DNA of 64,000 bases from the NCBI GenBank assembly GCA_007695365.1, contig REDV01000140.1:1-64000 (forward strand). Reading direction: 5' to 3'. Positions 2,902 to 61,548 of this stretch are shown here, one piece after another. The DNA comes from Cryomorphaceae bacterium (GTDB lineage: Bacteria > Bacteroidota > Bacteroidia > Flavobacteriales_D > SKUL01). A model generated the notes under the pieces. It saw only the letters and a program-made list of their open reading frames with translations, did no database searches and had not been told where the DNA came from. Every line of letters begins with the position of its first letter. The stretch's first letter is position 1. The position numbers were made by a program, and so were the translations under genes.

Positions 2902-3804
2902 ATGCGCAAACCACCTCCGCTCACTGCGGGCGATGAAATACGAGTCCTCTCTACCGCCAGGAAAATAACCCCGCAGGAGGTAGAGCCTGCCGTTCAAATA
3001 CTGGAATCATGGGGCTTTAGGGTGAGCCTGGGCAAACATCTCTATGCCGAAGAAAGGCAGTTTGCAGGTACCGATATACAACGGCGCGCTGATTTGCAGC
3101 AGGCACTCAACGACCCGCAGGTTAAAGCCATACTTTGCGCGAGAGGGGGGTACGGAACTGCGCGGTTACTGGATGAACTCGACTTTACACACTTTCATAA
3201 TACTCCGTGCTGGTTAGCCGGATACAGCGATGTAACCGCATTGCACAACCATCTGCACCGACACCTGGGTATTTGCTCCCTGCACAGCACCATGCCCGTG
3301 AACTTCCCAACCAATACCCCTGAAGCCCTTGAAAGCCTCAGGCTGGCACTCACAGGTCAAAACCTTGAGTACAGTACCGAACCGCACCCCCTGCAGCGGG
3401 TCGGAGAATGCAGCGGGCAGCTTACGGGCGGTAACCTTTCCATGCTTTACAGCCTGATGGGCAGCCCCTCGCAGGTAGATGCCGCCGGCAAAATTCTTTT
3501 TCTGGAGGATTTGGATGAGTACCTCTACCACGTTGACAGGATGATGCTCAATTTGCTTCGTTCTGGGGTGCTGGGTAATCTCGCCGGATTGGTGGTGGGT
3601 GGTATGACTGATATGAACGACAACGCCGTGCCTTTTGGTCGCACTGCCGAGGAAATCGTTCGCGAGGCGATTGAACCCTTCGATTACCCTGTGTGCTTTG
3701 GTTTTCCGGCTGGTCATATAAAAGACAACCGCACTTTGGTACTCGGTCAAAAAACAAAGCTCACCGTCGGAGAGTCCGGGGTGAGCCTTGTACAAATATT
3801 GTAA
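2902..3804 (+). CDS. LD-carboxypeptidase (peptidase family S66)
   Basis: 300 aa, typical for S66. These serine peptidases cleave L,D-bonds in murein peptides, usually trimming tetrapeptides to tripeptides during cell-wall recycling. The catalytic triad is visible: Ser109 in GYSD, Glu202 in FLED, and His272 in AGH. No signal peptide is apparent, which agrees with a cytosolic recycling enzyme of the LdcA type. It is divergent from metG and the two 5' regions overlap slightly. It converges with the DUF4412-like gene 14 bp away. Confidence 0.9.
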   Translation: MRKPPPLTAGDEIRVLSTARKITPQEVEPAVQILESWGFRVSLGKHLYAEERQFAGTDIQRRADLQQALNDPQVKAILCARGGYGTARLLDELDFTHFHNTPCWLAGYSDVTALHNHLHRHLGICSLHSTMPVNFPTNTPEALESLRLALTGQNLEYSTEPHPLQRVGECSGQLTGGNLSMLYSLMGSPSQVDAAGKILFLEDLDEYLYHVDRMMLNLLRSGVLGNLAGLVVGGMTDMNDNAVPFGRTAEEIVREAIEPFDYPVCFGFPAGHIKDNRTLVLGQKTKLTVGESGVSLVQIL

Positions 3805-5977: not shown

Positions 5978-6060
5978 TTCGGTCTGCTGCCAACTGTGGA
6001 AAACATAATTTCCGCAAGGCTTGCAAACTTCGTTTCTTTACCCTCAAAATTTCTGTGCAG

Positions 6061-52335: not shown

Positions 52336-54267
52336 TTGAAAAAGCCATTACTCGTCCTTTTCTGGATGTTGACGTGCGTTGTTTGCGCGGCAGGCAATGA
52401 ACTCGACAGCCTGCGCAGAATAGCGCCTCAACTGCCCGATTCTCAAAAGGTATATGTGTACAGCGATTTGTGCTTTGGCTACCGCTTTGTGAACAGCGAT
52501 AGCGCGTTGTATTTTGGCGAGCATGCACTGAAACTGGCACTACAGCTCAAAGACCAGCGCGGGCAGGCCCAGGCTCTGAACGACCTCGGGATCATTTACG
52601 CCGATCGCAATGAATACGATACATCGCTGGAGCTGTACGGTCAATCGCTCGAAATCCGCACAAAGCTTGCCGATACCCTGGGCATCGGAGCGCTGCACAA
52701 CAAAATGGGCATCATCCACCAGAAGAGGGGCGCGTACCATACGGCCATCGAGCATCAACTGCAGGCGCTTCGCAAGTTTGAGTATTTGGGTATTGATCCC
52801 TATGTGGCAACGTGCCAAAACAATGTGGCCATTCTCCACTTTAACCTGAAGCAGTACAAAAGAGCACTTGCCATGCACCAGGAGGCTCTTGAAACACGCA
52901 AACGCCTCAACAATCCCGAAGCCATTGCCATGTCGCACACCAATATTGGCAATGTGTATCTGGAGCTGGGCGATACATCACTTGCCGACGCTCAATACAG
53001 CATGGCAGCGGAATTATACAACCAGCTCAACCTGCCCGAGGGAGAATCTACCAACCTCCACAATCATGCGGGTTGTTTTCTTCATTCAAACCCCGCACGG
53101 GCGTTATCCATGCTGAAGCGGGCGCTTGAAATTCGCACGAGGCTCGACGATGATAAAATGCTTGCCTCCACCCATGCGCTCATTGGCAATGCCTTGTCGA
53201 ACCTCGGACGGCATCAGGAGGCTTTGGGCCACTTCAGAACTGCCTTGAAACGCTCGGAGGCAGCCGGTGTAAGCGCAGAGCAGATCAACGCCAATGAGCA
53301 GATGGCGAGGCTTTTTCGGAAGTTGGGTAACGCAGATAGTACCTACTTCTACCTGGCGCGCTCGGCCGCGCTGAAGGATTCTGTGTTCAATGAATCCCTT
53401 CGGCAGGATTTTGCAGAGCTTCAGACCCGCTACGAGACCGAACGAAAAGAGGCCAGCATTGCCTTGCTTACCGAACAGAACAAGGTGGCAGACCTTAAAG
53501 TGCAACGCCAACGAAACCAAATGATATTGCTCGTTACGGGCTTTTTTCTTCTGCTGCTAACGGGCTCTCTGGCCTATCTGCGGGTGCAGGCCCGACGTCG
53601 CGCGGAAATTGCCGAAGCCACCCTTCGTGAGCGAGAGGCCGGATTGCAGGCCGTAATCACCGCCACCGAAGCTGAGCGCAGCCGCATTGCCCGCGACCTT
53701 CACGATGGCGTGGGTCAGCAATTGAGTGGCTTAAAAATGGCGTGGCAAAAGCTTACCGACGATTTACAAACTTCAGAAGCAGCTGGGAAGTTTCACATTC
53801 AGGGGCTTACAGAAGTGCTCGACTCGGCATGTGCCGATGTGCGCGAGATTTCGCATCGCATGATGCCGCGCTCATTGGAGCGTTACGGACTACTGCCTGC
53901 GCTCGAAGACATGGTTACCAAAACCTTTTCGCCGACTTCCATCACATGTTCGTTTGAGAAGTTTGGCGTACAAGAACTTAGGCTGACAACCGAAACAGAA
54001 TTGGCTGTGTACCGTGTGGTTCAGGAGTTGGTTTCCAATATCCTGAAACACGCAAACGCCACCGAAGTGCAGGTGCAGGTGCTGAAAAATGCCAACCAGT
54101 TTATCGTGATGGTTTCCGACAACGGAAAGGGCTTTGATCTCCATGCGTCGGGTAAGGGCATGGGCTTGCGCAACATGGAAAGCCGGTTGCGCGCAGTAGG
54201 GGGCGACATTCATTTCGACACACAACACGGCACACATGCCACCATTCGCATAATTATACAACCATGA
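52336..54267 (+). CDS. TPR sensor histidine kinase, NarX/DesK-like (HisKA_3)
   Basis: 643 aa from TTG at 52336, which begins a signal peptide (KKPLLVLFWMLTCVVCA). Seven or more TPR units (residues about 35-330), a coiled stretch, a membrane helix (about 395-415), then HisKA_3 with His456 in RIARDLHDGVGQQLSGL and a HATPase domain (SDNGKGFD, GMGLRNMESR). A near-consensus box TACCTTTA is at 52302-52309. The stop overlaps the regulator start by 4 bp, so kinase and regulator form one system. Signal unknown; TPRs suggest a protein partner. Confidence 0.92.
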   Translation: MKKPLLVLFWMLTCVVCAAGNELDSLRRIAPQLPDSQKVYVYSDLCFGYRFVNSDSALYFGEHALKLALQLKDQRGQAQALNDLGIIYADRNEYDTSLELYGQSLEIRTKLADTLGIGALHNKMGIIHQKRGAYHTAIEHQLQALRKFEYLGIDPYVATCQNNVAILHFNLKQYKRALAMHQEALETRKRLNNPEAIAMSHTNIGNVYLELGDTSLADAQYSMAAELYNQLNLPEGESTNLHNHAGCFLHSNPARALSMLKRALEIRTRLDDDKMLASTHALIGNALSNLGRHQEALGHFRTALKRSEAAGVSAEQINANEQMARLFRKLGNADSTYFYLARSAALKDSVFNESLRQDFAELQTRYETERKEASIALLTEQNKVADLKVQRQRNQMILLVTGFFLLLLTGSLAYLRVQARRRAEIAEATLREREAGLQAVITATEAERSRIARDLHDGVGQQLSGLKMAWQKLTDDLQTSEAAGKFHIQGLTEVLDSACADVREISHRMMPRSLERYGLLPALEDMVTKTFSPTSITCSFEKFGVQELRLTTETELAVYRVVQELVSNILKHANATEVQVQVLKNANQFIVMVSDNGKGFDLHASGKGMGLRNMESRLRAVGGDIHFDTQHGTHATIRIIIQP

Positions 54268-54902
54268 ACAAGATTCGCCTTGCCATTGCAGATGACCACC
54301 CTTTGGTGCTGGACGGTTTACGCTCGCTGATTGACGGTGCCTCCGATATACAACTCGTGGTGACCGCCGAAAATGGCGCGACCCTGCTCCACAAGCTCAT
54401 GCATCAAGACGCCGATGTGGTGCTGATGGATATCGATATGCCGGTGAAAAATGGTATTGAAACCACAAGGGATATACGTCAGCGTTATCCTCAATTAAAA
54501 GTACTTGTGCTCACCATGCATGATGAGCCGGCCATGATACGTGAGCTGGTGAATGACGGCGCCCAAGGCTACCTGCTCAAGAATTGCGGAAGGGACGAGC
54601 TTTTGCTGGCCATACGCACGGTTCGCGAAGGCAAGCCCTACTTTTCGGGAGAAGCGGCTGTAAAGCTGTTGCAGTGGAATGAGGGCCCGGCAATTCCTGA
54701 GGAGCTGAAGGAACTTACCGAGCGTGAGCTTGAAGTGCTAAAGGCGATTGCTGAGGGAAAATCCAACAAGGAAATCGGGGATATGCTCTTTATATCACAC
54801 CGCACGGTAGATACCCACCGCACCAACCTGATGAAGAAGCTGGATGTTCACAACATCGCGGGGCTTGTGCGAATCGCCATGCGGAATGGATTGATCGAAT
54901 AA
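54264..54902 (+). CDS. NarL/FixJ family response regulator
   Basis: 212 aa. Receiver with DDH (residues 10-12) and phospho-acceptor Asp56 in VVLMDIDMP, then a LuxR helix-turn-helix at about 148-205 (LTERELEVLKAIAEGKSNKEIG, HRTVDTHRTNLMKKL). Partner of the TPR kinase just upstream (4-bp overlap). The 85 bp after its stop lead into the left repeat of the accessory island. Confidence 0.94.
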   Translation: MNKIRLAIADDHPLVLDGLRSLIDGASDIQLVVTAENGATLLHKLMHQDADVVLMDIDMPVKNGIETTRDIRQRYPQLKVLVLTMHDEPAMIRELVNDGAQGYLLKNCGRDELLLAIRTVREGKPYFSGEAAVKLLQWNEGPAIPEELKELTERELEVLKAIAEGKSNKEIGDMLFISHRTVDTHRTNLMKKLDVHNIAGLVRIAMRNGLIE

Positions 54903-54986
54903 CACGTTGTTTTTTGAATCCGCATGGTACATTTTATTGTGCATGAAACGCAATTTGGTCAAGTCAGTCTCTTCGGGCACCACTCC

Positions 54987-55032
54987 TCTGATTTCCTGAC
55001 CTACCCCGGTATCGGCAACTCGCTGACCATTT
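54987..55032. repeat. Left direct repeat of the island (displaced copy of the pgm 3' end)
   Basis: Forty-six bases identical to 58777-58822. On the minus strand they read as the last ten sense codons of the phosphohexomutase gene (ending ..LPIPG), its TAG, and 14 bp of downstream flank, but here there is no gene attached. Identity ends abruptly on both sides. Confidence 0.9.
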
Positions 55033-55180
55033 TAAGAATAGCTGAAGACATTGTTAAAAACTCTTTTTCATCCCCTTCCCCAAATTTCTTCATATTTGTA
55101 CGAACGGGTTAGAATGAATGGGTTATCACTATTCTCTGTGTGGAAGTTGTAAGGAAAGTCAGGAATAATTAAAGTTGAGC

Positions 55181-55258
55181 ATGGAAATAAGCAGACTGAA
55201 ACCGAGAAAGGCGCTGAATAAAGCCTTTTTGAAACAACTACAAAAACTGACATGCTAG
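55181..55258 (+). pseudogene. Remnant resembling the N-terminus of a restriction-modification methylase
   Basis: A 25-codon open frame (ATG at 55181, TAG at 55256) with ISRLKPRKALNKAFLKQ. From memory, LKPxKALNKAFLK opens large Eco57I-like type IIG or ISP restriction-modification methylases of Bacteroidota. After this the frame ends and the TIGR02391 gene starts inside it (55252), so nearly all of such a gene would be missing. It may instead be a short leader peptide; the match is by recollection only. Confidence 0.45.
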
Positions 55259-55887
55259 ATTTTACTCATCTCCATCCTATTCTTGTGACAGACATTCAAA
55301 GCCATTTTGAAAATGGACTCTATACTGATGCTGTGCGTTCAGCAGTAATTACGTTTAATGATGAAGTCAAGAGGTACATCAAGAGCATTTACGAGTTGGA
55401 ATTGGATGGTGCTGATCTGATGCGTAAAACTTTTTCTAGGCAGAAGGGATTGCTAAAGTTTTCAGAGGATGATACTGAAACTACCCGAAATGTTCAAGAG
55501 GGGTACTGTACAATCATGGCCGGTGTTATGCAAGGAATCAGAAATCCAGTCACTCATGGAAACGAGTATTTCTCGGAGATTGAATGTGCAGAGATACTGG
55601 TGATGATTAGTCATTTATTGCGTATGTTCGACGGAGCTAAGGTTAATAATAGAATCCATTTGGATGGTCTTATATCCAAAATACGTTCTCTTGGGCCCGA
55701 ATCATTCATAAGAAGCGACAGAGGAGATAAAAGGCGATGGGTGGTCATCGAAGGCACCATTCACCACATTCATGACGGGCAAACTCACGGGCGTATTGGC
55801 AAGCTTAACGGGTACCTAAACAGTCCTCGTAAAGTAGATGGGAAAAACATAAGCAGTTACAAAAAAGGCAAAGAAATCGTTTCATAG
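55252..55887 (+). CDS. TIGR02391 (Hypoth_Ymh) domain protein with C-terminal extension
   Basis: 211 aa. Residues about 5-130 follow the TIGR02391 pattern: LHPILV, an Ala-Val-rich helix (DAVRSAVITFNDEVK), DGADLMRKTFS, a Glu-rich turn, EGYCTIMAGVMQGIRNPVTHG, then ILVMISHLLRMFD. The RNPxxHG segment resembles HEPN-fold active regions. The family is common in plasmids, prophages and defence islands, function unknown. The last 60 residues (RRWVVIEGTIHHIHDGQTHG... and a basic tail) do not belong to the domain. Starts inside the methylase-like remnant; followed 49 bp later by a methyltransferase-like gene. Confidence 0.8.
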   Translation: MLDFTHLHPILVTDIQSHFENGLYTDAVRSAVITFNDEVKRYIKSIYELELDGADLMRKTFSRQKGLLKFSEDDTETTRNVQEGYCTIMAGVMQGIRNPVTHGNEYFSEIECAEILVMISHLLRMFDGAKVNNRIHLDGLISKIRSLGPESFIRSDRGDKRRWVVIEGTIHHIHDGQTHGRIGKLNGYLNSPRKVDGKNISSYKKGKEIVS

Positions 55888-55936
55888 GTCATTCGGATCC
55901 TTGACTTGAATATTTTATATCATTAACTCAAAGAAC

Positions 55937-56620
55937 ATGAATCAATCAAAGCTATACGGCGCAGGAGACAAAATAATGAAGCTTGTTAAGGATGAAGTTA
56001 TTAGTATTCCTACGCACCAATTAAATATTCTGGATGTGGGTTTCGGAGATCCTGGTTCATTTTTTCTATTCTTCCACCTTTGTCCTTTCAATCAATATTG
56101 GGGAGTAGACCTGCTTGAAGAACAGAAATTTAAACTATCATACCCTGTAGCACTAATTAAAGAATCTGGTGAAGAATGTATTACCAATGGTTACGATTCT
56201 GTATATGTGAGATACTGTACTTTTTACAATTGCATTATTAAACAATTTAATAATAAAGTAAGTCCACTTCTTTCGGAGCAAGATTTCAAGAAAATTTTCA
56301 ACTTCCACTTTGAAATGCCTGTCCAGCAGTATTTGACTGATGGTGTCAAGAAGGATTATCGTCCGAATCTACTTGTGTTGTCTAATTTTCTTCATTGCTT
56401 GAATGACAAGAATGAAGCGGTTAATGTCTTTAGTAGCCTTATTGATTTTGTGAGTGATGATTGCTTTATTTTTATACAGGTATATACAGAGCCGCCGTTA
56501 GGGCAAACAAAGCTAGTATTCACAGAAGATGATTTAAAATTATTTGATTCACGTCTAAATGTTAAATGTAAGTATCCTGATGGGCAGTTTACCATAATTG
56601 CTGGAAGAAAGAGAGCGTAA
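55937..56620 (+). CDS. SAM-dependent methyltransferase-like protein
   Basis: 227 aa. LNILDVGFGDPGSFFLFF followed by YWGVDLLEE reads as motifs I and II of a class I methyltransferase, with an acidic residue ending the second strand. Later VLSNFLHCLND and CFIFIQVYTEP fit strands 4 and 5. No DPPY or NPPY motif, so a DNA amino-methylase is unlikely. A small-molecule, protein or RNA target is open. AT-rich, unlike host genes. Probably co-transcribed with the TIGR02391 gene and convergent with the three-gene operon. Confidence 0.65.
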   Translation: MNQSKLYGAGDKIMKLVKDEVISIPTHQLNILDVGFGDPGSFFLFFHLCPFNQYWGVDLLEEQKFKLSYPVALIKESGEECITNGYDSVYVRYCTFYNCIIKQFNNKVSPLLSEQDFKKIFNFHFEMPVQQYLTDGVKKDYRPNLLVLSNFLHCLNDKNEAVNVFSSLIDFVSDDCFIFIQVYTEPPLGQTKLVFTEDDLKLFDSRLNVKCKYPDGQFTIIAGRKRA

Positions 56621-56692
56621 AATGCACCCCATCTCGCGCAAGCATTAGCGCAGCGGTGCTTGTGTGAATGAGTTTTTCCACTGTTTTCGCAT

Positions 56693-57193
56693 CTATCCAT
56701 TTAATCGCTTTCTAAACGCCTTCATTTCAGCCTTTGTGCCGGGCGGAGAAATTGGCCACCGGGCTTTGCGTGCCATGATGGTTCTCAACTTTTCTGATTT
56801 TGTTCCGATGATGATCGTATGAGCTTTGTTATTCGGCTCTCCAAGATTTTCGGGATCTGAAAAAATGGGGTCGTACTCAACTTCTTGTTTTGGACAGTCT
56901 AATTGGTGGATATTTCGCCATTCCTCCACTTTGTGACTATAAACGAAGTAGTGCTTTGGGTCTTTAAAATTTGTTGTTCCCGTTTTGTACTGCTTCCCCA
57001 AGCGACTTAATGTTTCTTTGGGCGTTGAATACGCCGACCAGTCACAGGATTTATTGGGCCCCTTTTCAGGTGTGTTACCAAGCGCAGCCTCCTTGGGTTG
57101 AGGCTTTTGATCTTGGGTTTTGTGCGTTACATTCTGGTGATGAATAAAGAAATAAAGATCATCTGCATCAGGTATTTCTTCCTTTTCAAACAT
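56693..57193 (-). CDS. Island operon gene 3, unknown (DDLYxxIH / DWSAYSTP type)
   Basis: 166 aa. Begins near DADDLYFFIH, then a Lys/Gln/Pro linker, CDWSAYSTPKETL, a Lys-rich middle, and a C-terminal stretch with AHTIIIGTKSEKLR and MARKARW. I recall uncharacterised bacterial proteins that share this order (a DLYxRIH start, an S-V-D-W-x-x-Y-x-x-P box, an NxAHxxIxG box) but no name or function. No membrane or signal segment. Starts 7 bp after the stop of the gene before it. Confidence 0.65.
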   Translation of the reverse strand: MFEKEEIPDADDLYFFIHHQNVTHKTQDQKPQPKEAALGNTPEKGPNKSCDWSAYSTPKETLSRLGKQYKTGTTNFKDPKHYFVYSHKVEEWRNIHQLDCPKQEVEYDPIFSDPENLGEPNNKAHTIIIGTKSEKLRTIMARKARWPISPPGTKAEMKAFRKRLNG

Positions 57194-57200
57194 ACTGTCA

Positions 57201-57764
57201 TTAGCGGGAAAGGGCAGTCAGGTAACCTACTACATCATCAGGAAGCGGCTTATCCAATTCAATTCCTCCTTGCCGCCCCAATTCTTCTCTGTACTTATCG
57301 AAGTAGAAATATGCGATTTTGGATGCGGGATTTCGGAAATTTATCAGCATAAACGCTTCTGACAAACGCCAAACCACGTCAATCGATCCGTCGGGACACG
57401 CGTTGATTTCTGGAAAAGACAAAATCAGGTTCTGCTGGTCAGAGAGACTTTTAAATGCTTTTTTCAAAAAGGCTAAAGCATTCTCTATATTTTCTGATTC
57501 TGGTTTAAGCGCGTCATTCTCATCCCAATTGGCAACTAAGGATTCGAGCTCTGTTCTTTCTTCTTTCAGCTGTTGATTGAAATGATCATAGTCCTTGTTG
57601 GACGAACGTTCGAAACCCACTACAACTTTCATCTCGCTTCTTGGAGCATACGCCCATTCAGAGTCAAGAAACTCTTTGCTGTACCCTTGGTCGAGCGGCA
57701 ACTTGGGGCGATCGAAGGAGTGAATCTTGTCGGTTATAAAACGGTTATTGAATGTGGAGTTCAT
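57201..57764 (-). CDS. Island operon gene 2, unknown (nWDe / P-S-P-D type)
   Basis: 187 aa. Contains LESLVANWDENDA, then ENIENALAFLKKAF, then INACPDGSIDVVW and a strand-rich end. Similar small proteins (an nWdg core, a helix, and a PdGgi..eW strand) are widespread and often sit beside DLYxRIH-type proteins, as here; this is recollection rather than a search. No catalytic or membrane motif. Lies between operon genes 1 and 3 with gaps of 15 and 7 bp. Confidence 0.65.
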   Translation of the reverse strand: MNSTFNNRFITDKIHSFDRPKLPLDQGYSKEFLDSEWAYAPRSEMKVVVGFERSSNKDYDHFNQQLKEERTELESLVANWDENDALKPESENIENALAFLKKAFKSLSDQQNLILSFPEINACPDGSIDVVWRLSEAFMLINFRNPASKIAYFYFDKYREELGRQGGIELDKPLPDDVVGYLTALSR

Positions 57765-57779
57765 CTTTCAATTCAATTT

Positions 57780-58454
57780 TTATTGCTCAATGAATGTAAA
57801 AGCACCTGATTTGCGCATCTGATCTTCTTTTTTTAGTGCCCGATCAATATGCTGCTTTATTTCCTGCAACTGCGAGCGCGTTAAACTTACATAGAGCTCT
57901 TTCTGACCGTCAGCATCACGCCGTGCAAGTTTTAGTCGATGAATAATAATGGCATGTTCACATTCCAAAGATGGATCCTCGTCATCAAACAAGAGGCGAA
58001 TATCAGAAATCACTCTGCAAGAATCATAAACATGCTCTGATTCATACAACAAGCTGGTTGCCTTCAGTGCACGACGAATAACAATTGCTTCGTCGTATAA
58101 AAGCTGCACCCTTTCTGCGATTTTTTCCGCATTACCAAAATCCTTTTCTTGAAGCTGGTCACTCAATGAAGAGTAGAAGTCTTTAAAAAACACTTCTGAC
58201 GTATCATTTTGACGGTATCGGAATGAAATCATTCCTAAGATTGCCTCTATCGCATGCCTATGTTTTGTTTCTTTAATCTCGGCAATCCAATTAACAATAT
58301 CCTGAATTTTAGGCGTAGTATCTTTGCTTAATCCACCTTTAAAAAGATCACTTAGTTTATCAAACTCCTTCAGTTCCAAATCACCAATGGTAATAAATCC
58401 GGATAGATGATTTTCTGGAATGTTTATTCTGGCCACAGCAGGCAAGTTAACCAA
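57780..58454 (-). CDS. Island operon gene 1, unknown (ISDIRxxFD type)
   Basis: 224 aa. First half is a helical region (IQDIVNWIAEIKETKHRHAIE). Second half has ATSLLYESEHVYDSCRVI, SDIRLLFDDEDP, HAIIIHRLKLARRD and LYVSLTRSQLQEIKQHIDRA, a pattern of uncharacterised proteins with a 'xDxRPxFD' strand pair and a final helix. It heads the minus-strand operon of three genes. No signal peptide or membrane helix, so cytosolic. Confidence 0.65.
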   Translation of the reverse strand: MVNLPAVARINIPENHLSGFITIGDLELKEFDKLSDLFKGGLSKDTTPKIQDIVNWIAEIKETKHRHAIEAILGMISFRYRQNDTSEVFFKDFYSSLSDQLQEKDFGNAEKIAERVQLLYDEAIVIRRALKATSLLYESEHVYDSCRVISDIRLLFDDEDPSLECEHAIIIHRLKLARRDADGQKELYVSLTRSQLQEIKQHIDRALKKEDQMRKSGAFTFIEQ

Positions 58455-58626
58455 TTTGCGTACAACAATACGAATTATCGGAAAAATGTCCTAAATAGTT
58501 AACATTATTTGGTCGGGGAATTTCTGCGTTTATTCCTTTCATGAACATTTACTTTACCTTCTGGTTCCTTTCCAACGGCATTTCTGGTGACCATGCTCCG
58601 CGCTGCTTTTTTCCCCAACTCCACTC

Positions 58627-58716
58627 GCGCGCGATTGCATCGCGTGCGCTTATGTACCCCCCGTACCCGCGAAGCCCTGCTTCGTGGGGAGTTACTGTGG
58701 CAAGTTTTACTTGCCA
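58627..58716. repeat. Three tandem hairpins at the right end of the island
   Basis: GCGAT(58631-58635)/ATCGC(58639-58643); a 10-bp stem 58666-58675/58679-58688 with one G-T pair and loop CCT; and an 8-bp stem 58698-58705/58709-58716 with loop TTT. They lie in the GC-rich non-coding stretch between the operon-gene-1 promoter side and the right repeat. Remainder of 58455-58776: no gene seen. Compare the hairpins at 38-115, also beside a duplicated gene 3' end. Confidence 0.65.
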
Positions 58717-58776
58717 ATACCCCCGCTGCTGCGCGAAAAACAATTCGACGCAGTCCATTCCTTAACGAACCACACG

Positions 58777-58822
58777 TCTGATTTCCTGACCTACCCCGGT
58801 ATCGGCAACTCGCTGACCATTT
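58777..58822. repeat. Right direct repeat of the island (native pgm 3' end)
   Basis: Second copy of the 46-bp repeat at 54987-55032. Here bases 58791-58822 are the genuine end of the phosphohexomutase gene and the other 14 bp are its downstream flank. Confidence 0.9.
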
Positions 58823-60527
58823 GTTCGGTGCGACGGCCGAGATCTGTCCAAACGTTGTGGAAGTTGGCGGTGGAGGAAAGCGGCGCTTTCAGGCTGAAGT
58901 AGAATTTGATTTTGGGCTCGGTGCCGGAGGGGCGGGCTGTAATCTTGCTGCCATCCTGCAGCACAAATTGCAACACATTGCTTTTGGGCAATCCGATGGG
59001 TTCGCGCTGGCCATTTTCAAGGTTCAGCACCTCCTGCGACTGAAAGTCTTTGCGAAGCATCACAGGCACACCGCCTAATTGTTGCGGCGGCTGGGTGCGC
59101 AGCGTTTCCATCAACATTTTGATTTCCTCCGCGCCATCTCGACCTTTGCGGGTAACGGAAACCAGCGATTCACGGTAACAGCCGTAGCGTGCGTAAATAT
59201 CCAGCAGCAATGCATAAAAACTGCTGCCCCGGCTTTTGGCCCACGCGGCAGCTTCGCACAGCATGACCGACGAAATCACGGCGTCCTTGTCGCGGACCAA
59301 ATCGCCCACGAGGTAGCCGTAGCTCTCTTCGCCCCCGCCAATAAAAACCTCCGAGCCTTCTTTGCGCGCAATCACGTCGGCAATGTACTTGAAGCCGGTG
59401 AGCGTTTCGTAGGTGTTTACGCCGTAATCGCGGGCTATTTCCCCGAGTAAATCAGAAGTTACCACCGTTTTGCAAACAAACTCGTTGCCCTGCAGTTTGC
59501 CCAACTCCTTCCACTTTTCGAGCAGGTAGTAAATCAGCACCGAAGCAGCCTGGTTGCCGTTGAGAAGTTCCAGCTCACCCTTCAGATTGCGCACGGCGAT
59601 ACCCACGCGGTCGGCGTCGGGATCGGTACCGAGAATAATATCCGCACCGGATTGTTCACCCTGCGCAAGCGCCATGGCAAGGGCTTCGCGCTCCTCGGGG
59701 TTGGGCGATTTTACAGTAGAGAAAGCCGGGTCGGGATGGCTTTGTTCCTTTACAAGGGCAGTGTGCGTAAAACCGGCTTCGCGAAGCGCATCGGGAACCA
59801 GCATCACAGAAGTACCATGCAATGGGGTGAAAACCACCTTCAATTCGGAGGCTGCCTGAGCGTCGTTCAGGAGGTACAAGTTGCGGATGGCCTGCAAATA
59901 CATGCGGTCCATTTCCTTTCCAAGCACCTGTATAAGCGACTCGTCAACATCGGTTCGCACCTGTTCGATGCCTTCCATTTTTCGCACTTCGGCGATGATG
60001 TTGGTGTCGTGCGGAGCCACAATCTGCCCGCCATCGTTCCAGTACACCTTGTAGCCGTTGTACTCGGGGGGGTTGTGCGATGCCGTAACTACAATGCCCG
60101 TGGTGCAGCCCAATTGGCGCACGGCAAACGACAACTCTGGCGTGGGTCGCAGGCTCTCAAACAGGTAGGCCTGCACACCGTTGGCTGCAAACACCTCGGC
60201 GGCGGTACGCGCAAACTCCGCGCTGTTGTACCTGCAATCAAAAGCAATGGCTGCTTTTGGATTTTCAATGCCGCATTGCCGGATGTAATTGCAAAGCCCT
60301 TGTGTAGCCATGGCAATGGTGTATCGGTTTACGCGGTTGGTGCCGGGGCCCATGATTCCGCGCAAACCACCGGTGCCAAATTCAAGGTCGCGGTAAAAAG
60401 CCTCGGTGAGCTCGTCCGATTGGTCGGCCATCATCTGCTGCACCTGTTGGCGTGTTTGTTCGTCGTAAGGAGCTTGTGTCCAGCTTTGCGCTCTTTGCAG
60501 AACGCGCTCTTCGGTTGGTTGACCCAT
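58791..60527 (-). CDS. Phosphoglucomutase/phosphomannomutase family protein
   Basis: 578 aa from the ATG at 60527; upstream codons overlap rfbB. Interconverts hexose 1- and 6-phosphates. The phospho-Ser is Ser150 in TASHNPPEYNGYK, the metal loop is GTDPDADRVG, the sugar loop GGGEESYGYL, and the phosphate-binding RPSGTEPKIKFY is near the end. The beta form of the long PgcA/PMM-2 type is expected. In the dTDP-sugar operon it can supply glucose-1-phosphate. Its 3' end is the island's duplicated target. Confidence 0.93.
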   Translation of the reverse strand: MGQPTEERVLQRAQSWTQAPYDEQTRQQVQQMMADQSDELTEAFYRDLEFGTGGLRGIMGPGTNRVNRYTIAMATQGLCNYIRQCGIENPKAAIAFDCRYNSAEFARTAAEVFAANGVQAYLFESLRPTPELSFAVRQLGCTTGIVVTASHNPPEYNGYKVYWNDGGQIVAPHDTNIIAEVRKMEGIEQVRTDVDESLIQVLGKEMDRMYLQAIRNLYLLNDAQAASELKVVFTPLHGTSVMLVPDALREAGFTHTALVKEQSHPDPAFSTVKSPNPEEREALAMALAQGEQSGADIILGTDPDADRVGIAVRNLKGELELLNGNQAASVLIYYLLEKWKELGKLQGNEFVCKTVVTSDLLGEIARDYGVNTYETLTGFKYIADVIARKEGSEVFIGGGEESYGYLVGDLVRDKDAVISSVMLCEAAAWAKSRGSSFYALLLDIYARYGCYRESLVSVTRKGRDGAEEIKMLMETLRTQPPQQLGGVPVMLRKDFQSQEVLNLENGQREPIGLPKSNVLQFVLQDGSKITARPSGTEPKIKFYFSLKAPLSSTANFHNVWTDLGRRTEQMVSELPIPG

Positions 60528-60528
60528 G

Positions 60529-61548
60529 CTAAGCGGTGAATTTTTTAACGTACCACTGTACGGTTTTTTCAATTCCTGATTCAAAGTTTTCGTCGGCGCG
60601 CCAGCCCAGCTCACCTTCAATTTTGGTGGCGTCAATGGCGTAGCGCTGGTCGTGACCCGGCCGGTCTGTTACAAAGTTGATGAGCCGCTCATAGCTCCCT
60701 TCTGCATCGGGGTGAATGCGGTTGAGCATCTCGCAAATGGTGCGGGCTATGTAGAGGTTGTTGCGCTCGTTTCGTCCGCCAATGTTGTAGGTTTCGCCCT
60801 CGCTGCCTTTTTCAAAGGCGAGTAAAATTCCCTTGCAGTGATCCAGCACATAGAGCCAATCGCGAATGTTGCTGCCGTCGCCATAAATGGGAATAGGCTG
60901 TGCAGACAAGGCCTTGCGGATGATGGTTGGAATGAGTTTCTCATCGTGCTGCTTCGGACCGTAATTGTTGGAGCAGTTGGTGGTAACCACTCCCAGCCCG
61001 AAAGTGTGAAAATAGCTACGCACAAAATGGTCGCTGCTGGCTTTGCTGGCGCTGTACGGACTGTTGGGTGCGTAGGGAGTGGTTTCGGAAAAGAGACCCG
61101 TTTCGCCCAGGCTTCCGTAAACCTCGTCGGTAGATACGTGCAGGAAGCGCGCGTGTTCCATACCCGCTTTGCGCTGATGCGGCGCGTCCATCCAGTACTT
61201 TCGGGCCACTTCCAGCAGGTTAAAGGTGCCCACCACGTTGGTTTGCACAAAAGCCTTGGGGCCTGTAATGCTGTTGTCCACGTGCGATTCGGCCGCGAAG
61301 TGAATCACGCCGTCAATTCGGTGCTCGCTGAAAATGCGCTCAACCCATTCGGTATCGCAAATATCTCCCTGCACAAAGGTGTAGCGGGGGTGGTTTTCAA
61401 CTTCCTTTAGATTTTGAAGATTGCCGGCATAGGTGAGCAAATCGAGGTTCACGACGTGAACATCGGGTCTGGTTTCCAGCAGATGCGGAACGAAATTGGA
61501 GCCAATAAATCCTGCTCCTCCTGTAACGAGTATATGGGTAGGGTTCAT
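60529..61548 (-). CDS. rfbB: dTDP-glucose 4,6-dehydratase
   Basis: 339 aa from the ATG at 61548. Extended SDR enzyme making dTDP-4-keto-6-deoxyglucose. NAD-binding TGGAGFIGSN at residues 9-18, the catalytic STDEVYG strand and YSASKASSD loop present. The frame is open for 108 more codons upstream, but they overlap rfbD. The 4-bp overlap with rfbD and a 1-bp gap to the mutase gene show one operon. rfbA and rfbC are not in the window. Confidence 0.95.
   Translation of the reverse strand: MNPTHILVTGGAGFIGSNFVPHLLETRPDVHVVNLDLLTYAGNLQNLKEVENHPRYTFVQGDICDTEWVERIFSEHRIDGVIHFAAESHVDNSITGPKAFVQTNVVGTFNLLEVARKYWMDAPHQRKAGMEHARFLHVSTDEVYGSLGETGLFSETTPYAPNSPYSASKASSDHFVRSYFHTFGLGVVTTNCSNNYGPKQHDEKLIPTIIRKALSAQPIPIYGDGSNIRDWLYVLDHCKGILLAFEKGSEGETYNIGGRNERNNLYIARTICEMLNRIHPDAEGSYERLINFVTDRPGHDQRYAIDATKIEGELGWRADENFESGIEKTVQWYVKKFTA

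Follow-up and report, generated by a model that had tools for sequence, protein, structure and literature searches.

How does a small set of accessory genes come to lie at the 3' end of a housekeeping gene, between two identical copies of that gene end, when none of them codes for an integrase? The question is raised by an interval of about 3.8 kb (54987-58822) in a stretch of 64,000 nucleotides (the window) of a Cryomorphaceae draft genome, where it separates a response regulator gene from a phosphohexomutase gene. Its features are listed in Table 1.

A duplicated gene end bounds the island

The original prediction held that 46 bp are identical at both ends of the island. This sequence, TCTGATTTCCTGACCTACCCCGGTATCGGCAACTCGCTGACCATTT, indeed occurs without a mismatch at 54987-55032 and 58777-58822, and a search allowing up to three mismatches found only these two occurrences in the 3.52-Mb assembly. 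No other exact direct repeat in the window is as long, the runner-up measuring 18 bp. The right copy comprises the last 32 bp of the mutase coding sequence, stop codon included (58791-58822), and 14 bp of 3' UTR, whereas the left copy is a piece of the mutase 3' end detached from the gene, just as had been proposed. The lack of any change over 46 positions would bound the divergence between the copies to less than about 6%. Composition changes at the same limits: GC content drops by about 0.13, from about 0.53 outside to about 0.39 between the copies (0.34-0.43 over 55000-58500 versus 0.51-0.57 immediately outside), and GC3 is 0.30-0.47 in the island genes versus 0.51-0.66 in the neighbouring ones. 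The break in both measures falls exactly between the two core copies, which bears out the earlier description of an A+T-rich interior with genes unlike their surroundings. An Rfam search gave no match.

Table 1. Features of the island and of its immediate surroundings, with positions in the window
Feature	Position	Strand	Basis
NarL-type response regulator, left neighbour	54264-54902	+	PF00072, PF00196
47 bp outside the left core	54940-54986		28/47 identical to 58730-58776; weak REP family D profile match
Left 46-bp core (putative attL), displaced mutase 3' end	54987-55032		Repeat searches of window and genome
Type IIG restriction-methylase (DUF7149/Eco57I) remnant of 25 codons, MEISRLKPRKALNKAFLKQLQKLTC*, truncated N-terminus	55181-55258	+	Identity to full-length ORFs
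i1, Ymh/TIGR02391 protein, HEPN-like, complete gene	55252-55887	+	PF09509, TIGR02391 and PADLOC profiles
i2, orphan ORF	55937-56620	+	Weak DUF4441; N-terminal ILDVGFGDPGS
REP family A repeat	56627-56668		42/42 to consensus
i3, operon gene 3, family without Pfam match	56693-57193	-	Orthologues elsewhere
i4, operon gene 2	57201-57764	-	C-terminal beta domain weakly like PADLOC candidate PDC-M32A
i5, COMMD-like protein, operon gene 1	57780-58436	-	Alignment, predicted structure, profile
REP cluster: B (58658-58689), C (58699-58715), D (58721-58767)	58658-58767		Palindromes dispersed elsewhere in the genome
Terminator-like stem-loop directly after the mutase stop	58748-58775	-	Hairpin analysis
Right 46-bp core (putative attR), within the intact mutase gene end	58777-58822		Repeat searches of window and genome
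Phosphoglucomutase/phosphomannomutase, target gene, intact	58791-60536	-	PF02878, PF02879, PF02880 above cutoff; PF00408 weak

Past the perfect core, the two copies resemble each other over 47 bp on the NarL side only, an extension equalled by 13 pairs when 200,000 pairs of window positions were drawn at random; no similarity between them was found on the mutase side. The match of the left 47 bp to the REP family D profile is the third best in the 64 kb. Such one-sided similarity would fit an attP whose match to the mutase 3' end was originally longer, and of which the core alone was kept identical. Together with the REP repeats that abut the right core, it is also compatible with an older duplication or rearrangement, in which a second copy of the mutase 3' region arose and foreign DNA entered by homologous or illegitimate recombination, for example at the flanking REPs, without site-specific recombination. 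The extended similarity overlaps the REP D repeat beside the right core, and several REP families lie within the island, as such a history might leave them. Yet an unchanged 46-bp block beside flanks of 60% identity is unlike an ordinary old duplication, and direct repeats at the ends of insertions recur in two other genomes that carry part of the same cargo (G466 and G420, see below). We regard this rearrangement as quite unlikely.

The island could also reflect an error of assembly or binning, in which an episome or a second strain was joined at the shared 46-bp sequence. The assembly is a draft of 154 contigs, and at a low k a repeat of this length may suffice to join reads, but the island has housekeeping genes to its left and right on a contig of 71 kb, and the REP families inside it are the host's own. 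This makes for a very improbable account.

The REP repeats of the island are repeats of the host

Short palindromic REP repeats cluster at the right-hand end of the island, and a family A copy lies in its middle. The genome contains at least four families of short palindromic repeats, dispersed and often found at contig ends. On contig G000:C103 (L137), a gene for a RAYT (Y1_Tnp; 2418-2966) is bracketed by family A copies at 2377-2413 and 2996-3035, and because of this association we consider the REPs of the island to be dispersed repeats of the host, and not attC sites. An integron or super-integron array was accordingly discarded as a candidate: the palindromes lack attC ends, occur in both orientations and match the REPs around the RAYT gene. 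Elsewhere in the genome, on G000:C118 (L135), an exact direct repeat of 191 bp at 6013 and 8057 extends from a REP B copy into two related ORFs.

Two accessory modules

The left module opens with the restriction gene remnant, of which 18 residues align with the beginning of a 1462-aa ORF in G014 (83% identity) and with its counterparts in G723 and G018 (67%). These full-length relatives (1216-1462 aa) are found in other genomes of the order, adjoining accessory genes, and two of the three match PF23653, PF25120, PF07669 and PF12950. To judge from its sequence, the truncated gene shows a probable decay of the element. The next gene, i1, matches PF09509 (E 8.1e-24), TIGR02391 (E 2e-14, above cutoff) and the PADLOC profiles PD-Lambda-3_B (E 7e-13) and Aga_HEPN (E 3e-8). 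The motif near the start of i2, read by eye, suggests a class I methyltransferase; no relative of this ORF was found among 396 genomes of the phylum. PADLOC matched no complete anti-phage system, its component hits being partial or weak only, and searches of plasmids, phages and viral contigs for the cargo proteins returned nothing except distant Ymh proteins in two phage records.

The second module is an operon of three genes in the order i5-i4-i3 (58436-56693 on the reverse strand). In the Commander complex of endosomal recycling, the ring is built from COMMD proteins. The AlphaFold model of i5 (pLDDT 73) has the architecture of that fold, an N-terminal domain of helices and then three strands, which form a sheet, and a long C-terminal helix (the COMM domain). 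Foldseek placed it closest to 9q6a (E 1.5e-11) and then to human COMMD subunits (8f2r, E 5.4e-6), and a profile built from five i5 proteins matches 9q6a over its full length (E 3.7e-43). Since both searches lead to 9q6a, i5 is, by predicted structure and profile, a bacterial COMMD-like protein. Its start was set by alignment at the GTG at 58436, where the list of ORFs has a TTG at 58454. The entry 9q6a is the COMMD-like protein MBK5214510 of a Flavobacteriaceae bacterium (PDB 9q6a, 9q6c, 9q6d), an octamer according to the title of the entry; i5 shares its fold at about 23-25% identity in the structural alignment. The literature that we searched yielded no paper on bacterial COMMD proteins, which are known here through recent PDB entries only, and none of the texts found treats the operon partners or the mobile carriage of such a protein. 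As for these partners, the model of i4 (pLDDT 62) has helices followed by a five-stranded region and gave no match in a fold search, while i3 matched no known family and is 34-37% identical to its orthologues in G466, G631 and G420.

The operon travels with small elements in other genomes

The operon is rare, because the i5 profile has matches in four of the 396 sampled genomes of the phylum (the present one included) and the i3 profile in six (E <= 0.01, two of them marginal). The order i5-i4-i3 is kept in G112, G466, G631 and G420, with a third gene only weakly alike in G112, and partial forms occur in G243 and G516. At least two other species carry it as cargo of small inserted elements. 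In G420 (L166), an intact element of 4.9 kb encodes an integrase (Arm-DNA-bind_5, Phage_int_SAM_5 and Phage_integrase domains), an HTH_17 protein and an HUH initiator (REP_ORF2-G2P), followed by the three genes. It lies at a tRNA-Gly gene between direct repeats of 20 bp, one of which is the first 20 nt of the tRNA, and has subterminal repeats of 25 bp inside both ends. Nearby, between tRNA-Val and tRNA-Gly (G420:C8, 5250-5560), there are about five tandem units of 59 bp that include the tRNA-Val 5' end. In G466, the operon stands alone in an integrase-less cassette of about 1.9 kb, between two copies of the 3' UTR and terminator of the upstream gene that share a perfect 21-bp core and have diverged flanks; another 353 kb of that genome, searched with up to four mismatches, did not contain the terminator hairpin.

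Around the remaining operons (G631, G112, G243 and G516), strict scoring revealed no flanking repeats beyond those expected by chance. In G631 the operon adjoins AbiH and a serine resolvase, and in G112 a helicase, a methylase-like gene and a PsyrA-like gene. The operon recurs as mobile or defence-associated cargo in Bacteroidota. Its composition varies: at G243:C114 (5411-7273, L133) an i4 relative and a third gene follow a 279-aa protein that replaces the COMMD gene and looks TIGR04255-like by eye, with no Pfam match, suggesting that the first gene is exchangeable, and at G516:C45 (7656-9389, L146) the two small genes behind a COMMD-like gene differ from i4 and i3, which they replace.

A decayed element or a cassette moved in trans

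As originally predicted, the island has no integrase: no recombinase or transposase domain, and no integrase remnant, was found within it. The genome as a whole has no serine recombinase, and its tyrosine recombinases are XerC, XerD and a solitary Xer/IntI-like protein of 386 aa on contig C28 (3479-4639, L138), which scores between the XerA/XerC and the integron integrase models, below the TIGR02249 cutoff, and has relatives in most genomes of the order. Given this repertoire, the cell is at present without an evident dedicated helper.

These results bear on the possibility that the island is a working non-autonomous cassette or satellite that never required an integrase of its own and moves in trans, by means of the integrase of another element (of the G420 type) or of the solitary recombinase. 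The operon is carried twice between repeats and without an integrase, in the island and in the G466 cassette, and once together with an integrase, in G420. Both integrase-less carriers place it immediately downstream of the target gene and co-oriented with it, and the left core of the island is undecayed. A helper with the 46-bp core is nevertheless missing from the data, with no further copy in the genome and no match to a 22-bp stretch of it in viral contigs. The remnant of the restriction gene looks like decay, and the type of the solitary recombinase is common in the order, with no tie to the mutase site. Movement in trans is, in our opinion, an unlikely explanation.

Because the restriction gene is truncated and the assembly contains no dedicated integrase, a decayed element is more plausible than a working cassette. 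Overall, the reading with most support is that a mobile element inserted at the 3' end of the mutase gene, because the core is perfect, composition breaks at its two copies, the gene end is intact and the same cargo is found in the G420 integrase element and in the G466 cassette. We infer this insertion, because no close relative shows an empty site: the contig of the single congener compared (G001) ends within the adjacent kinase gene and so lacks the junction, and the best mutase in other genomes, at only 57% identity, is too distant for the comparison. Neither an excised circle nor a further site occupied by the island was seen. The mutase 3' end was also considered as a recurrent hotspot, and rejected as such, the end not being duplicated in some 90 more distant relatives, many with short flanks. 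The claim of an integrated element that keeps the host gene intact thus stands as the favoured reading, while the suggested cassette or satellite mobilised in trans is less probable than an element that has decayed. With a probability of about 0.7, we propose that this was an integrative element inserted by tyrosine recombination, whose mobility genes were lost; recombination of this type and the subsequent loss, like strand exchange and excision, are steps that we infer.

Discussion

Under the proposed history of integration and decay, a tyrosine recombinase would have joined the attP of the element to the mutase 3' end within the shared 46-bp core. The insertion would have left the mutase with a stop codon and a terminator-like hairpin, and moved the old 3' end about 3.8 kb away, to the NarL side. 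The element would later have lost its integrase, excisionase and replication genes, along with most of the type IIG restriction gene, and may have gained REP repeats of the host after insertion. What remains would be two accessory modules, HEPN/Ymh with the orphan ORF, and the COMMD-like - i4 - i3 operon. Their function would most likely be related to defence, because of the HEPN/Ymh gene, the restriction remnant and the company that the operon keeps elsewhere (guilt by association).

Such a history resembles that of a CIME (cis-mobilizable element), in which integration and transfer genes have been lost and attL and attR kept (PMC5704250). The island has no integration or transfer genes, and it is flanked by att-like core copies, one of which restores the end of a target gene that was left intact. 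No parent ICE or IME was found at the same site, the core being absent from the rest of the genome and from the viral contigs. The island differs in its content of defence-type genes within about 3.8 kb, and its likeness to a CIME is one of sequence anatomy. It resembles the G420 element in its operon, its similar size and its direct repeats at both ends, but the latter has integrase, HTH_17 and HUH genes, a different target (tRNA-Gly) and a core unrelated in sequence. Defence-carrying islands with unclear mobilisation have been described in E. coli (PMC10121019); they are likewise small, with defence genes and no known way of moving, but typically keep an integrase or recombinase, which the present island does not.

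A broader proposal sees the COMMD-like - i4 - i3 operons as the load of a class of tiny cassettes that have no integrase, enter at terminators or at the 3' ends of genes, and depend for movement in trans on int-HUH elements with the same operon. The COMMD ring of bacteria would belong to an uncharacterised system of defence or inter-element conflict. We offer it as a speculation with little likelihood at present. The two integrase-less, repeat-flanked carriers bear on how small defence islands without mobility genes spread. That a COMMD-like gene belongs to a conserved operon of three genes found on small integrative elements, in the company of HEPN, AbiH and restriction genes, gives a hint of where these proteins may work in bacteria, and makes of this operon a testable gene set.
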